From positions 1-64,000 of the forward strand of contig CAJXLV010000013.1 of the NCBI GenBank assembly GCA_913056185.1: a stretch of 64,000 nucleotides of DNA, in the 5' to 3' direction. Origin of the DNA: an uncultured Bacteroidota bacterium. GTDB lineage: Bacteria; Bacteroidota; Rhodothermia; Rhodothermales; Salinibacteraceae. The notes below the pieces were generated by a model that searched no databases, was not told the origin of the DNA, and saw nothing but the letters and a program-made list of their open reading frames with translations. Positions 29,588 to 63,868 of this stretch are shown in pieces (the first letter of the stretch is position 1; every line of letters starts with the position of its first letter). The position numbers were made by a program, and so were the translations under genes.

Positions 29588-30487
29588 ATGCGTTCTCGCC
29601 GAACCTTTCTCAAACAGCTCGGCGCGGCCGTTGCCGCCGCCCCCCTCGCGTCCTCCATCGCCTCGAAGCTGACCCGGGCAGACGGGTTCACGGCCCTTCG
29701 CCGCGGCGTAGGCACCTTCACGCAGCGCGGGGGCACCATCGGCTGGCTGGTGACGGACGACGGCCTCGTGGTGGTCGACACGCAGTATCCTAAATCGGCA
29801 CCCGACTGCTGGAGCGGCCTCCGCGAGCGGTCCGACAGCCCGCTCGCGATGGTCGTCAACACGCACCACCACGGCGACCACGTGGGCGGCAACGGCGTCT
29901 TTGCCCAGTACACCGACCGCATTGTCGCCCACGCCAATGTCCCCGACCTCATGCGACCGTCCGCCGACGACGGTGCGACCGACGAGAAGACCTACCCGAC
30001 GGACACGTTCGAGAACACATGGAGCGAGAGCGTCGGCGACGAAACGATCACGCTTCGCTACCGCGGCCCGGCGCACACCGGGGGCGACGCGATCAGCGTC
30101 TTCGAGAATGCCAACGTCGTCCACGTGAGCGACCTCGTCTTTAACCGCGCCTACCCGTTCATCGACGTGGCGGGCGGAGCGGATTCGAAGAACTGGATCG
30201 CGCAGCTCAACACGATCCACGACGCGCTCGACGACGACACGATCGTCATCCACGGCCACGGCAACCCCGAGTTTGGCGTGACGGGCGGGCGGGAGGACCT
30301 GCTGGTGATGCGCAATTTCCTGGAGGCCCTCAACGAGTACGTCACCCAGCAGCGCCAGGCGGGCGCTTCGCTCCAGGAGATGAAGCAGACGAAGGTCCTG
30401 GAAGGCTTCGAGGCGTTCAATTTTGACTGGGCGCTTTCGCTGTCCGCCTGCATCGAAGCGGTGTACCGGGAGCGGACGGAGGGGTGA
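29588..30487 (+). CDS. Tat-exported metallo-beta-lactamase-fold hydrolase
   Basis: 299 aa from the ATG at 29588, which gives a twin-arginine signal (RSRRTFLKQLGAAVAAAPLASS). The zinc site is VVNTHHHGDHVGGN, with the downstream His in RGPAHTGGDA and Asp/His in HVSDLVFN and IVIHGHGN. This is the general MBL hydrolase pattern without a family-specific motif, so the substrate is unknown. It should act in the periplasm. It is the only intact plus-strand gene inside the men cluster, and it sits with a decayed toxin-antitoxin remnant between menH and menD, as if inserted there. Confidence 0.82.
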   Translation: MRSRRTFLKQLGAAVAAAPLASSIASKLTRADGFTALRRGVGTFTQRGGTIGWLVTDDGLVVVDTQYPKSAPDCWSGLRERSDSPLAMVVNTHHHGDHVGGNGVFAQYTDRIVAHANVPDLMRPSADDGATDEKTYPTDTFENTWSESVGDETITLRYRGPAHTGGDAISVFENANVVHVSDLVFNRAYPFIDVAGGADSKNWIAQLNTIHDALDDDTIVIHGHGNPEFGVTGGREDLLVMRNFLEALNEYVTQQRQAGASLQEMKQTKVLEGFEAFNFDWALSLSACIEAVYRERTEG

Positions 30488-30605
30488 ACGTTTGGAAGTC
30501 TGGATGTGTGGAGGAAGAGGACTTCAGAGGTAACACCACTGCGTTCTCTCGGTCCACGCACTGTGTCGATGCTTCGATGACAGACTGCGAACTGAGCCTT
30601 CAGCC

Positions 30606-30868
30606 GTGCCCGCTCCGTCGGTCCCAGCGTCGTCGCCCCAATCCCTCCCCCAACTCGAAGAAACGGAGCTGTCCGGCCTGCTGAAATTGATCGAGGCCGG
30701 CCTCTCGACTGAGCTGGCGAGCAAGGTCGAAGGGCGCGTCGGGTCCCGTCGGTCGTCGTGCCCTGCAGTTACAACCACCTGCTCAATCCGACCCACGAGG
30801 CGTCTGGTGAGGTGGGGATTGGTGACGCGGAGCCCTTTCCTGTGGACCAGCGGCTGATCCTCGACTGA
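30606..30868 (+). pseudogene. Wreck of a Xre/RES toxin-antitoxin locus
   Basis: Two half-genes run together. From 30606 (GTG) the frame reads ...LEETELSGLLKLIEAGLSTELASKVE, which resembles the N-terminus of MbcA/ParS/Xre antitoxins. After about 30720 a different frame takes over, with RRVPSVVVPCSYNHLLNPTH and then EPFPVDQRLILD and TGA at 30866-30868. That is the C-terminal end of RES-domain toxins (PS-V-V-P...N-L-L-N-P-x-H...D-x-R-L). The middle of both genes, roughly a kilobase in an intact pair, is missing. The simplest reading is one internal deletion. RES toxins degrade NAD+, so loss of the toxin is easily tolerated. The Xre half is less certain than the RES half. Confidence 0.55.
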
Positions 30869-30873
30869 GAGAC

Positions 30874-32652
30874 TCATCCTCCGGGTTCAGCCCCTACCTC
30901 CGCCGCAATTCCTTCTTCCAGTTCTTCATGCACCCGCCGGTTGGCCTCGCGGTCGGTCTGCACCTCGATCAGCACGGACCCGCCGGACTGACACGCCTGG
31001 TCGTACGCAGCCCGAAAGGCTGAGGGCGTTTCGGGCCGGTGATAGGGAAGGCCGAAGGTTACCGCCGCGTCTTCGAAGGTGCGCCCGTGGGGCGTCGTGA
31101 AGTACGGATCGAAGTCGTCGTGCTCCCGGATTGGGAGAAAGTGGAAGATGCCGCCGCCGTCGTTGTTAACGACCACCACGACCACCGGGCGGTCCTGGAG
31201 GAGGGCGAGGCCGTTGAGGTCGTGCCAGAGGGCAAGATCGCCGATGAGGAGCGTGACGGGGCCGCCGCGGCCCGTGGCAACGCCTGCGGCGGTGGCCACG
31301 GTGCCATCGATGCCACTCGCGCCTCGGTTGGCGTACGTGGGTCCGGCCGCACCCTCAACAGCGCCGTGGCGGTTTAGGTCGCGCACCGGCATGCTGCTGG
31401 CCGCCACGAGCGCGTGGTCCGTCGGACACGCATCGCTGAGGAGCGTCGCGGTTAGGGGCTCGGTGAGCGTATCGGTCTCATCCGCGTGTGTTTGCACGAC
31501 AGCCCCGGCCCGGTCGCTTGCAGTCATCCAGGCACGCCGCCAGTCGGTCGCCCCGCCTCCGTCGTCGAGCCGGGCGATGAGCGCGTCGGCAAACGCCGGC
31601 ACGTCGGCCTCGATGTGGTGCGTGACGCGGTGGTCCGGGTCGATGCGGGACGGACTCGGGCGCGCCACGGCCCAGGTCTGCGGCGCGCAGTCGCGGAGGA
31701 AGAGGCGCAGTCGTTTCGACGCGAACCGTCCCCCCACCTGCAGCACCGCTTCCGGCGCGTGGGCCTCGCGGAAGGCCGCGGACGTCAGTACGAGGTCGGC
31801 AAACGGCACACGCCCCGCCTGCCCTCCGCCCCGCCGACACCGGGAGGTGATGTCGGGCACGAGCGGCCAGCCCAGGTGCGACGCGAGGCGCTGCGTGGCG
31901 TCCGCCGCGGCGGCACTGTCGAGGCGCCCCGCCACGACGAGCCCCTTCTCGGTGCCCCCGAGCGATTCGGCCAGCGCCTGCGCCTCCGGACCCGGAGGGG
32001 TGGAGACGGGCGTCGGGTACTGCGTGTACGGATCGGTGCCCGCGGCCCACGCGGTCACCGACGCGGAGACCGACAGGGATTCCTCCGCTTCCACTGGCTC
32101 CAGGGGCTTGCGAAACATGCAGTTTACGTGCACGGGTCCGGCGGGGGTGCGTGTCGTGCGGTGCACCGCCTGGTTGGCCGTGGTCAGGACGTACGCCGGG
32201 TCGATCTTGTCGGACGGAGGCGGGACGTCCACCTGCCAGCGCACGTAGTCGCCGAAGATCTTGACCTGATCAATCGTCTGGTTGGCGCCAGTGTCGCGCA
32301 GCTCGGGCGGGCGGTCGGCGGTCAGGAGAAGCAAGGGAACGCCGTCCACGGAGGCCTCCACGACGGCGGGCAGTCCGTTGGCGACGGCGGTGCCGGAGGT
32401 GGTAATCCAGGCCGCGGGCGTCTGCGTGGCGCGCCCGCAGCCAAGCGCCGCGAACGCGTTGCCCCGCTCGTCCACGTGCAGCACCGTTCGGGCCTCGGGG
32501 TGGCGGGCCGCGGCAACGGTTAGCGGCGTCGATCGGGAGCCGGGCGCGACGAAAAAGGCATCGACCCCATTCCGGACCAGCTCCTCAACGAGCATCTGGG
32601 TCCAGAGATAAGTGCGGTTCGGTGCGTCGAGGACGGAGAAGCGATCAGGCAC
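30874..32652 (-). CDS. menD: 2-Succinyl-5-enolpyruvyl-6-hydroxy-3-cyclohexene-1-carboxylate synthase
   Basis: 592 aa. ThDP-enzyme layout: the N-terminal domain has FFVAPGSRSTPLTVAAARHP and HVDERGNAFAALGCGRAT with the catalytic Glu, then TTSGTAVANGLPAVVEAS and LTADRPPELRDTGANQTIDQ. The C-terminal ThDP/Mg motif is GDLALWHDLNGLALL followed by VVVNNDGGGIFHFLP. Everything is MenD-specific. It joins 2-oxoglutarate-derived succinic semialdehyde to isochorismate. menF lies 116 bp upstream on the same strand. Confidence 0.96.
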   Translation of the reverse strand: MPDRFSVLDAPNRTYLWTQMLVEELVRNGVDAFFVAPGSRSTPLTVAAARHPEARTVLHVDERGNAFAALGCGRATQTPAAWITTSGTAVANGLPAVVEASVDGVPLLLLTADRPPELRDTGANQTIDQVKIFGDYVRWQVDVPPPSDKIDPAYVLTTANQAVHRTTRTPAGPVHVNCMFRKPLEPVEAEESLSVSASVTAWAAGTDPYTQYPTPVSTPPGPEAQALAESLGGTEKGLVVAGRLDSAAAADATQRLASHLGWPLVPDITSRCRRGGGQAGRVPFADLVLTSAAFREAHAPEAVLQVGGRFASKRLRLFLRDCAPQTWAVARPSPSRIDPDHRVTHHIEADVPAFADALIARLDDGGGATDWRRAWMTASDRAGAVVQTHADETDTLTEPLTATLLSDACPTDHALVAASSMPVRDLNRHGAVEGAAGPTYANRGASGIDGTVATAAGVATGRGGPVTLLIGDLALWHDLNGLALLQDRPVVVVVVNNDGGGIFHFLPIREHDDFDPYFTTPHGRTFEDAAVTFGLPYHRPETPSAFRAAYDQACQSGGSVLIEVQTDREANRRVHEELEEGIAAEVGAEPGG

Positions 32653-61025: not shown

Positions 61026-61290
61026 TTAAAGCCGGTCGAGCAGCCTGTCACAATCCTTGTGCGAGCCAATCCAGAACCAGACGATTGACTCTTCCTCCTG
61101 CACACCGACCGCACGATAGTCTCGCGTGATGCGAACTGAGTAGATCGATCGGTCTGCGTGCACCTTCTTAAGCCGAAGACTTGGATGCCTCGTCCTCAAA
61201 CAGCTCGTAGGCCCTCCGAGCACGACGCTTGACCCTCTCCGGCAGCTCTGCGTACGCGTCCCAAAATCGAGATGTGGTTCGAGACTTCAC
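61026..61290 (-). pseudogene. RelE/ParE-like toxin gene with a frameshift
   Basis: From the GTG at 61290 the frame reads VKSRTTSRFWDAYAELPERV and then KRRARRAYELFEDE before running into a stop. One frame over, it continues HPSLRLKKVHADRSIYSVRI, and after a short link VWFWIGSHKDCDRLLDRL to the TAA at 61026. Joined, these are a full ~88-aa toxin of the RelE superfamily (A-Y-x-L-F-x-x-x-x-HPSL-x-x-K-x-V...S-V-R-I...R-A-V-G...W-F-W-I-G-S-H). The break is at about 61191, after FEDE and before HPSL, and corresponds to one extra or two missing bases. The gene starts inside the antitoxin stop (GTGA overlap), so it was once coupled to it. The toxin is inactive unless the frame is restored. Confidence 0.72.
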
Positions 61291-61505
61291 AGCTGACCTG
61301 GATCAAGCTTTTCCGATTCGCCATCGTCGTGTTTTTTCAGGGCCTCGTCTGCCAGTCGCCCGAGTTCATCCTGTGACTGATTGAAGGCCTGCTCCCATCG
61401 ACGCTCAGATTCAAGCTCCTCCAGAATGAAGGCCGCAAAGTCGTTCTGTTCTTCCTCCGGGAGCTTAGACGCTTTCTCAAAGGCCTTCTCCAGCAGTTGG
61501 GTCAT
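61287..61505 (-). CDS. Antitoxin of the broken RelE-like pair
   Basis: 72 aa, intact. MTQLLEKAFEKASKLPEEEQ opens the protein, followed by ILEELESERRWEQAF, ADEALKKHDDGES and KLDPGQL. This is the small antitoxin type common in cyanobacteria and Bacteroidota next to RelE-like toxins, with no classical DNA-binding fold visible; the acidic, helical C-terminus would wrap the toxin. Its stop overlaps the toxin start. With the toxin frameshifted, the antitoxin is an orphan. Confidence 0.72.
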   Translation of the reverse strand: MTQLLEKAFEKASKLPEEEQNDFAAFILEELESERRWEQAFNQSQDELGRLADEALKKHDDGESEKLDPGQL

Positions 61506-61798
61506 AACGCAGTGGACATGATTCTAAACTGCAGCGTTGGGAGCGCCACGCCCGGAGCAGCTTTACAGTTCCCAAACCAGTATTCGCAGCATAACGAAAA
61601 AGCTCAGCTGAAATGGGAAAGGAAACGATCAGCAGAATTTGCTGCGATAAATCAGCATTCTCTCTCGAAGTTTCCGTTCGCTGGCGTCGTCACTCTTGGT
61701 GCGCGAAGTCGAACCGGACCGACTGACCTCGATTGAAAACGGCCCGCGCCTATTTTCAGCTGTAGCGGCCTTGTTCTGGGGCGCAGGCAGGCCATGGA
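61506..61798. other. 293-bp region between two toxin-antitoxin pairs
   Basis: No gene supported. It contains GCAGCATAACG at 61586-61596, an inverted pair CAGCTGAAA (61605-61613) with TTTCAGCTG (61754-61762), and the small palindrome CAGCA/TGCTG near 61632-61646. On the minus strand GTTATGCTGC is followed by the antitoxin gene below, and the inverted pair lies just behind it. The arrangement recalls the inverted arms of an attC site, but the match is partial. Confidence 0.35.
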
Positions 61799-62128
61799 CT
61801 ACAAGAATTCGACGTGACCCTCCATTTCTTCTGCTTCCATCTCCTCGGCGATCAACGTAAGACCGCGAACCAGTCCCCCAATCGTTCTTCCCTGTGGTGC
61901 GAAGGCGACTCCTGCATGCTCCTCAGTCTAAGCAGCTAGCCGAAGGAAGTCGTCATCGAAGGTCACGAGCACTCTTCCTTCCTCGTAGGCATACGTGAAG
62001 TGCTCTTTGTCGCTGGCTCCAAGCATCCCGGCTTCGCTCAGCGTGAGAACATCAATTCCACGGCTTCGAAGCCCCGTAGCGACTGCCTCTGCAACGTGTT
62101 CGTCAAGATAATATCGGATGGCGGCCAT
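61799..62128 (-). pseudogene. DUF5615/PIN-like toxin with an in-frame amber codon
   Basis: From the ATG at 62128 the protein runs MAAIRYYLDEHVAEAV, then LRSRGIDVLTLSEAGMLGAS and VLVTFDDDFLRLAA to a TAG at 61928-61930 (codon 67). The same frame continues TEEHAGVAFAPQGRTIGGLV and EAEEMEGHVEFL to a TAG at 61799-61801. Together these give a complete 109-codon DUF5615 toxin (L-D-E-H start, D-D-D-F, H-A-G-I-V, R-x-L...E-E-M-x-x-x-V-E-F-L). One base change makes the stop, so this is a nonsense mutation rather than truncation. The start is shared (1-bp overlap) with the DUF433 antitoxin stop. Readthrough would give the full protein. Confidence 0.72.
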
Positions 62129-62436
62129 TATTTCTTTCCCTGAAGCTTCTTCTCAAGCTTCGAGGGAGTCTTGCGCCGCAGTTTTTCTACAAAGGCTTTT
62201 CCCTCACGAATGGACTGGTCAATTTCCTCGCGGTGAGCAAAGTAGTAGGCAAGGGCCGCGTAAATGTCGGCCAACTCCAAATCGTACTCGGACGCGATTT
62301 CATCAGCGTCCCAGCCGAGGCGATCGTGCCAGATGGCGATGTTTTGCACCGTAATGCGATGTCCTGCAATCCGCGGCTTTCCTCCGCAGATGTCAGGCGT
62401 TTGGACGATCCGCTGATCGAGGGACTTGGTAGCCAT
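62128..62436 (-). CDS. DUF433 antitoxin
   Basis: 102 aa from the ATG at 62436. The DUF433 core is complete: RIVQTPDICGGKPRIAGHRI with the helix-turn-helix that follows, IAIWHDRLGWDADEIASEYD and LELADIYAALAYYFAHREEI, then a basic tail (KLRRKTPSKLEKKLQ). DUF433 proteins are antitoxins of DUF5615 toxins and bind DNA for autoregulation. The partner toxin directly downstream carries a nonsense codon. It is codon-biased like the rest of this AT-richer end. Confidence 0.87.
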   Translation of the reverse strand: MATKSLDQRIVQTPDICGGKPRIAGHRITVQNIAIWHDRLGWDADEIASEYDLELADIYAALAYYFAHREEIDQSIREGKAFVEKLRRKTPSKLEKKLQGKK

Positions 62437-62565
62437 GAGAGTGGATGGATAGTTTCCGCTCGGGATTGATGTTGTATCAACTGAGACGAGCAGAAGCAGT
62501 TGCACAGAGCAGCATAACGACAAAGTTATAGTATTGGGTAGAGCGCGAGAAGGGCTTGTAAAACT

Positions 62566-62581: not shown

Positions 62582-62671
62582 GGATACACGGACCCTTCTC
62601 GTCGAACGAAGTGAGCATGGATTGCTGCGCCCTCGAAACTTACAGCTACTATCCGTGTTGATGTAAATGCT

Positions 62672-63868
62672 ATGGCTCAAAAGAAGGGCTTCAAGTATCG
62701 GTTCTACCCGACCGAAGAACAAAAGGCGGTTCTCGCCAAAGTCTTCGGACACACTCGGTATGTCTGGAATTGGGCTTTGGAGCTTCGGACGGATGCTTAC
62801 TACGAAGAGGGCGAAAGCCTCAGCTACACCGATACGTCTCGGCGTCTGACCGATCTCAAGAAGAAGAAAACGTGGCTCCGCGAAGTATCGAGCGTGGCTC
62901 TTCAGCAGAAACTCCGTGATCTTGATCAGGCGTTCCAGAACTTCTTCGATGGGCGCTGCGGCTACCCCAACTTCAAGTCCAGACGCGACAAGCAAGCCGC
63001 CCGGTTTGCCTCGAACGCCTTCACGCTGCACGGCAAGAAACTGTCGGTGGCGAAGGTGCCGGGATGCCTGAACATGCGGTGGAGCCGGGATCTCCCCGAT
63101 GACGCGAAACCCACGTCGGTTACCCTCACCAAAGATCCGGCGGGTCGGTACTTCGCAAGTATCACCTGCACGGTGCCGGACCCAGAGCCGAAGCCGCCTG
63201 TCACCGACGAGGACGGCCATCCAAAGTCGGTTGGCATTGACCTTGGCGTTTCCGATGTGGTTGTAACCTCTGACGGCTTCAAGTCGGGCAATCCGAAGTA
63301 TCTCGACGATGATCTGTACCGCCTTCGCAAAGCGCAGCGTCGCCTTTCTCGCAAAGAGAAGGGGTCGGAAAATTGGAAGAAGCAGAAGAAGCGCGTAGCA
63401 AAGATCCACGCCGAGATTAAAGACAAACGAGAAGACTTTCTTCACAAGCTCTCCCGCAAGATCGTTGATGAGAACCAAGTCATCGCTCTGGAGAGCCTGA
63501 ACGTGAAGGGAATGCAACAGAACCAGAATCTGGCCCGGTCGATCAGCGACACCGGGTGGTCTACGCTCGTTCGAATGATCGAGTACAAAGCCGAAGAAGC
63601 AGGCCGGACGGTCGTGAAGATCGACCGCTGGTTCCCTTCGACCAAACGTTGCTCTGAATGCGGCTACGTCACTGACAGCAAGCCGCTGTCGGTACGGTCG
63701 TGGGAGTGTCCTCATTGTGAGGCCAGTCACGACCGAGACGTGAACGCCGCCGAAAACATTCGTACCGCTGGGCTGGCGGGAGCCTTTGACAGGGCTAATG
63801 ACTCTGGAGGACACAGTAAGACGCGGGACGCCTTTGTGCTGAACGCGCATGGTCCTGTGAATGAGTAA
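62672..63868 (+). CDS. tnpB: TnpB RNA-guided nuclease (OrfB transposase-associated)
   Basis: 398 aa, full length for TnpB. The N-terminal wedge has KYRFYPTEEQKAVLAKVFGHTRYVWNWAL. The RuvC nuclease residues are Asp190 (VGIDLGVSD), Glu274 (IALESLNVKGM) and Asp354/356 (SHDRDVNAAENI). The zinc ribbon has Cys327/Cys330 (RCSECGY) and Cys346/Cys349 (ECPHCEA). All catalytic and zinc residues are present, so this copy can be active. TnpB cuts DNA guided by an RNA made from the element's right end, and is thought to keep the transposon in place. It has no TnpA partner here. Confidence 0.93.
   Translation: MAQKKGFKYRFYPTEEQKAVLAKVFGHTRYVWNWALELRTDAYYEEGESLSYTDTSRRLTDLKKKKTWLREVSSVALQQKLRDLDQAFQNFFDGRCGYPNFKSRRDKQAARFASNAFTLHGKKLSVAKVPGCLNMRWSRDLPDDAKPTSVTLTKDPAGRYFASITCTVPDPEPKPPVTDEDGHPKSVGIDLGVSDVVVTSDGFKSGNPKYLDDDLYRLRKAQRRLSRKEKGSENWKKQKKRVAKIHAEIKDKREDFLHKLSRKIVDENQVIALESLNVKGMQQNQNLARSISDTGWSTLVRMIEYKAEEAGRTVVKIDRWFPSTKRCSECGYVTDSKPLSVRSWECPHCEASHDRDVNAAENIRTAGLAGAFDRANDSGGHSKTRDAFVLNAHGPVNE

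Follow-up and report, generated by a model that had tools for sequence, protein, structure and literature searches.

What is the short segment at positions 30606–30868 that separates two convergent genes in the genome of an uncultured member of the Salinibacteraceae, and how did it come to lie there? The segment belongs to a window of 64,000 nucleotides (contig CAJXLV010000013.1, positions 1 to 64,000 of the forward strand), and an original prediction made from the bare sequence had taken it for a Xre/RES toxin-antitoxin (TA) pair collapsed by one internal deletion. According to this prediction, the first half resembles the N-terminus of a Xre-type antitoxin and the second half the C-terminus of a RES toxin in another frame. 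Searches of Pfam returned no family for the second half, and Pfam and NCBIfam together returned none for the first, which is too short a piece. As the blank Pfam results reflect pieces that are too short or lie outside the models, we relied on pairwise comparisons and on profiles of our own.

The second half was identified as the 3' remnant of a RES toxin gene, comprising the last 42 codons and the stop codon (30740–30868, plus strand). Its frame differs from that of the preceding Xre-like part, terminates at the TGA at 30866–30868 and translates as RVPSVVVPCSYNHLLNPTHEASGEVGIGDAEPFPVDQRLILD (PSVVVP...LLNPTH...LILD in short). The absence of RES similarity in the part containing PSVVVP...LLNPTH would have spoken against the prediction; however, the NCBIfam model NF049844 (Res_ParT_toxin) matches this tail with E 2.2e-9 over profile positions 109–147 of 147, that is over its last 39 positions. 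A RES profile built from 29 of 30 RES loci of relatives finds the tail at E 2.3e-13, as compared to 0.27 for the next of the 1248 fragments of the window and 0.32 for the best reversed-sequence control. These two E-values rule out a chance resemblance for the RES part. In addition, the tail shares 71% identity (E 1.1e-16) with the RES C-terminus encoded at locus L004 of a congeneric genome.

The first half corresponds to about 46 codons from the 5' end of a gene for a Xre antitoxin of the ParS/MbcA type (30606–30743, plus strand). Comparison by tblastn with the Xre protein whose gene precedes res at locus L005 gave 58% identity over 45 amino acids (E 2.3e-8), and the Xre proteins of L004 and L007 were 37% (E 4.3e-5) and 35% (E 2.0e-4) identical, respectively. 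A profile of 22 Xre sequences, taken from those of the 29 loci in which an adjacent Xre passed the seed search, places the head as the best match in the window, albeit at E 0.0094, with the next best match and the best reversed control both at 0.33. Thus, the head is marginal by profile, and its assignment as a putative Xre remnant rests on the pairwise matches, on its position ahead of the RES tail and on how the DNA scores compare with those of shuffled sequences.

Loci L004, L005 and L007 are intact xre-res pairs from other species of the same genus, and both halves of the segment match the adjacent genes of all three in the same order. Like in these loci, the xre fragment lies directly upstream of the res fragment on the same strand, as had been predicted. 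When compared as DNA, the xre and res parts scored above all 300 dinucleotide shuffles against each of the three intact pairs. The similarity extends upstream: region 30524–30589 aligns locally to positions 925–992 of L005 with a score of 40, which is reached by none of 300 shuffles, whereas 8 and 11 of 300 shuffles reach the alignment scores obtained for the same region with L004 and L007, respectively. These ~65 bp, within a feature that we place at 30524–30599 (plus strand), are probably what is left of the old xre-res promoter. Considered as a possible mark of a dispersed repeat, the upstream stretch TTTGGAAGTCTGGA occurs at four places in the genome when one mismatch is allowed, and a control pattern at none. 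The weak profile score of the Xre part, taken by itself, would be compatible with a mere chance resemblance in intergenic DNA; since the two halves match the same gene pairs with the order preserved, and the scores of the RES part far exceed those of its controls, we assign this explanation a negligible probability.

What is missing becomes apparent from the intact pairs. A contiguous block reaching from inside xre to inside res is absent, which amounts to 701 bp relative to L005 and to 689 bp relative to each of L004 and L007. The best ungapped breakpoints fall at 30732–30736 (L005), 30740–30743 (L004) and 30740–30741 (L007), placing the junction at 30732–30743. Accordingly, the segment qualifies as a pseudogene remnant of a Xre-RES system, with both ends homologous to their families and the interior absent, and the loss agrees with the internal deletion across both genes that had been postulated. 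Most likely, one deletion reduced the pair to its two outer ends, although the single event is inferred, and several nested deletions would look alike. Direct repeats within the scar were also examined as a cause of the junction, which they leave unexplained.

On the antitoxin side, the remnant stops at residue 44 of 141 in L005 numbering, or at residue 56 of 152 in L004. The intact L007 protein scores as Xre_ParS_antitoxin (E 2.1e-33), and in this protein (142 amino acids as searched, from an internal start) residues 25–85 match the HTH model and residues 92–139 the toxin-binding domain PF09722. The remnant can therefore hold at most the beginning of the HTH domain (PF20432) and none of PF09722, far short of a complete antitoxin. 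On the toxin side, similarity resumes at residue 115 of 156–157, so that the first 114 residues are gone and the RES domain (PF08808) is incomplete. Of the NatT active-site residues R23, R82, Y93, N193 and S184 given in the available text of PMC11535050, the counterparts of R23, R82 and Y93 are expected to fall in the missing part, as judged by position. Because the first 114 toxin residues are absent, an NAD-degrading activity neutralized by an antitoxin is not expected of the remnant. In terms of sequence, 30606–30868 is thus what remains of an xre-res TA pair, neither protein of which should be able to work, as the missing block encoded the toxin-binding domain, almost the entire DNA-binding domain and toxin residues 1–114.

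It could be argued that the segment nevertheless encodes a functional small protein, as an open reading frame of 83 amino acids (30606–30857) starts with GTG at 30606, comprises the Xre-like part first and is preceded by a region similar to that upstream of the intact operon. However, no toxin-binding domain and hardly any of the HTH would be present in its product, whose tail, following the Xre head, is read outside the RES frame. Moreover, the segment as DNA has matches in 5 of 59 relatives, none of which covers both halves. We therefore regard a functional 83-residue protein as highly improbable. It is likewise very unlikely, in our estimation, that the scar has been retained for a residual activity of promoter and xre head, e.g. 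the binding or blunting of incoming Xre-RES systems in the manner of an anti-addiction module or decoy.

How the decayed pair came to its present place can be addressed by comparing the site between relatives. It is bordered by two intact genes that are not part of the remnant: the gene for a Tat-type metallo-beta-lactamase (MBL)-fold hydrolase (29588–30487, plus strand; PF00753, E 4.6e-16), in which the TAT_signal model is matched only below its cut-off (E 0.078), and menD (30874–32652, minus strand; TIGR00173, E 4.7e-140). Both genes are convergent neighbours in 11 of the 26 menD loci of relatives, considering flanks of 1.5 kb; eight of these 11 relatives are congeneric, two represent one further genus each within the family, and the last is from a different family of the order. 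In the same genus, G009 and G008 carry menD without the MBL-fold gene inside the flank; the menD match of G007 is partial, with 2.3 kb of sequence covered. The prediction had remarked that the remnant lies beside a Tat-MBL gene splitting the men cluster. This gene is indeed adjacent and next to menD, but the arrangement is shared with other genera and unconnected with the remnant; the MBL-fold gene has long been at this place.

The gap between the two genes measures 386 bp in the present genome versus 77, 67, 72, 72, 56, 5, 5, 15, 41, -22 and 60 bp in the 11 relatives. An intact pair at the same place, which one might have looked for in relatives, is found in none of these 11, all of which have short gaps without the pair, and no intact gene of another type occupies the site in the relatives compared. 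Neither the Xre head nor the RES tail has a match at E<=1 in the 26 menD loci, and the whole segment as DNA has none in G005, whose menD (84%) is the most similar among the relatives. Given the short, remnant-free gaps, the xre-res pair was probably gained in this organism's own lineage and died thereafter. As 30524 is where the resemblance to the L005 upstream region begins, the insert may have spanned ~30524 to 30868 and would then have ended 5 bases short of the stop codon of menD. The preceding stretch downstream of the MBL-fold gene (30488–30523) is probably native intergenic sequence; an 18-nt piece of it (30494–30511) matches the gap of G005 at 15 of 18 positions, in a comparison made without a control.

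In genome G009, the intact pair L005 lies, as read by eye, between a tyrosine recombinase-like ORF and a PIN-like ORF, which is in keeping with mobility of the pair. COG5654-Xre pairs were counted 55 times on plasmids and 195 times on chromosomes and are marked as plasmid-enriched in PMC2701414, in the available text of which S. ruber appears only in one row of the genome table. RES genes in 22 plasmid records match the remnant with at most 58% identity, and no closer source of the pair was found among plasmids. Viral contigs scanned for the L005 RES yielded nine pattern matches, none of them a relative. The best protein identities overall, 58% for Xre and 71% for RES, include no direct parent.

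The genome is a draft of 79 contigs with 93.91% completeness and 2.27% contamination, raising the question of whether the junction is an assembly artefact and the pair is in fact intact in living cells. Against this, no RES (PF08808) and no PF09722 match was detected at E<=0.001 on any of the contigs, although a wrongly collapsed copy could have put the missing part on another contig; we consider an artefact unlikely. One further Xre-like HTH is present on contig C34 (3411–3581, E 6.8e-13). By eye, this HTH looks intact and the C-terminal half of the ORF that holds it (L125, 1312–1998, minus strand) garbled, and no RES gene was seen in the 3.2 kb read around the Xre-like gene, which is possibly another decayed xre-res locus. 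Among the RES match rows from relatives, 4 of 59 contain in-frame stops.

The segment had also been counted as the fourth dead TA locus in the window. Three such loci could be traced, this one included, the two others lying at 61029–62439; no fourth emerged among the gaps searched. The second, likely dead as well, is the locus at 61029–61523 (minus strand), where a ParE-like toxin matches PF24732 at profile positions 19–64 of 67 (E 4.9e-9), its N-terminal part seemingly being encoded in another frame (61171–61302, no Pfam match), and where a small antitoxin-like ORF without Pfam match lies upstream (61290–61523, minus strand). The third, also likely dead, is found at 61799–62439 (minus strand), where a DUF433 gene (62131–62439, E 2.2e-21) precedes a DUF5615 PIN-like gene whose match is confined to profile positions 2–62 of 110, ahead of an in-frame stop. 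An IS605-type OrfB/TnpB gene (62669–63868, plus strand; PF01385, PF07282, PF12323) adjoins both loci.

Taken together, we hold it to be very probable that, in this lineage, a mobile xre-res operon inserted itself between menD and the convergent MBL-fold gene and was later struck by a single deletion of ~0.7 kb, from about codon 45 of xre to about codon 115 of res. This deletion would have stripped the antitoxin of its toxin-binding domain and almost all of its DNA-binding domain and cut away most of the toxin, leaving a presumably non-functional scar of ~345 bp composed of promoter, xre 5' end and res 3' end. Both the order of events at this very site, insertion before deletion, and the inertness of the scar are inferred. 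By the logic of addiction, a deletion striking both genes together would be expected to disarm the pair without free toxin. The locus thus offers a clean example of TA pair loss, in which toxin and antitoxin disappear at once through one gap over both genes, and along with the shorter remnant-free gaps in relatives it makes a small gain-and-loss story, although it opens no new mechanism.

With the type II Xre-RES systems ParS-ParT, MbcA-MbcT, NatR-NatT and Xre-RES of P. putida, the remnant has in common the order of antitoxin followed by toxin. Its RES tail fits the Res_ParT_toxin model, and the intact relative L004 matches the solved structure of ParT (6d0h, E 2.1e-20). RES toxins of such pairs deplete NAD+ (PMC11535050, PMC12204516); in contrast to these systems, both genes are truncated here and most functional domains are gone. 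Disrupted xre-res loci are also described for pseudomonads, where, in the available text of PMC7280312, 24 of 46 loci homologous to xre-res are without an intact toxin gene. Since loss or truncation of the toxin is common in xre-res loci, the remnant is another instance of a known process, i.e. ordinary genome decay, and we do not claim one deletion across both genes of a xre-res pair as unreported. In the pseudomonad loci, as presented in that text, the toxin gene is lost beside a retained antitoxin homologue, whereas here one gap extends across both genes.
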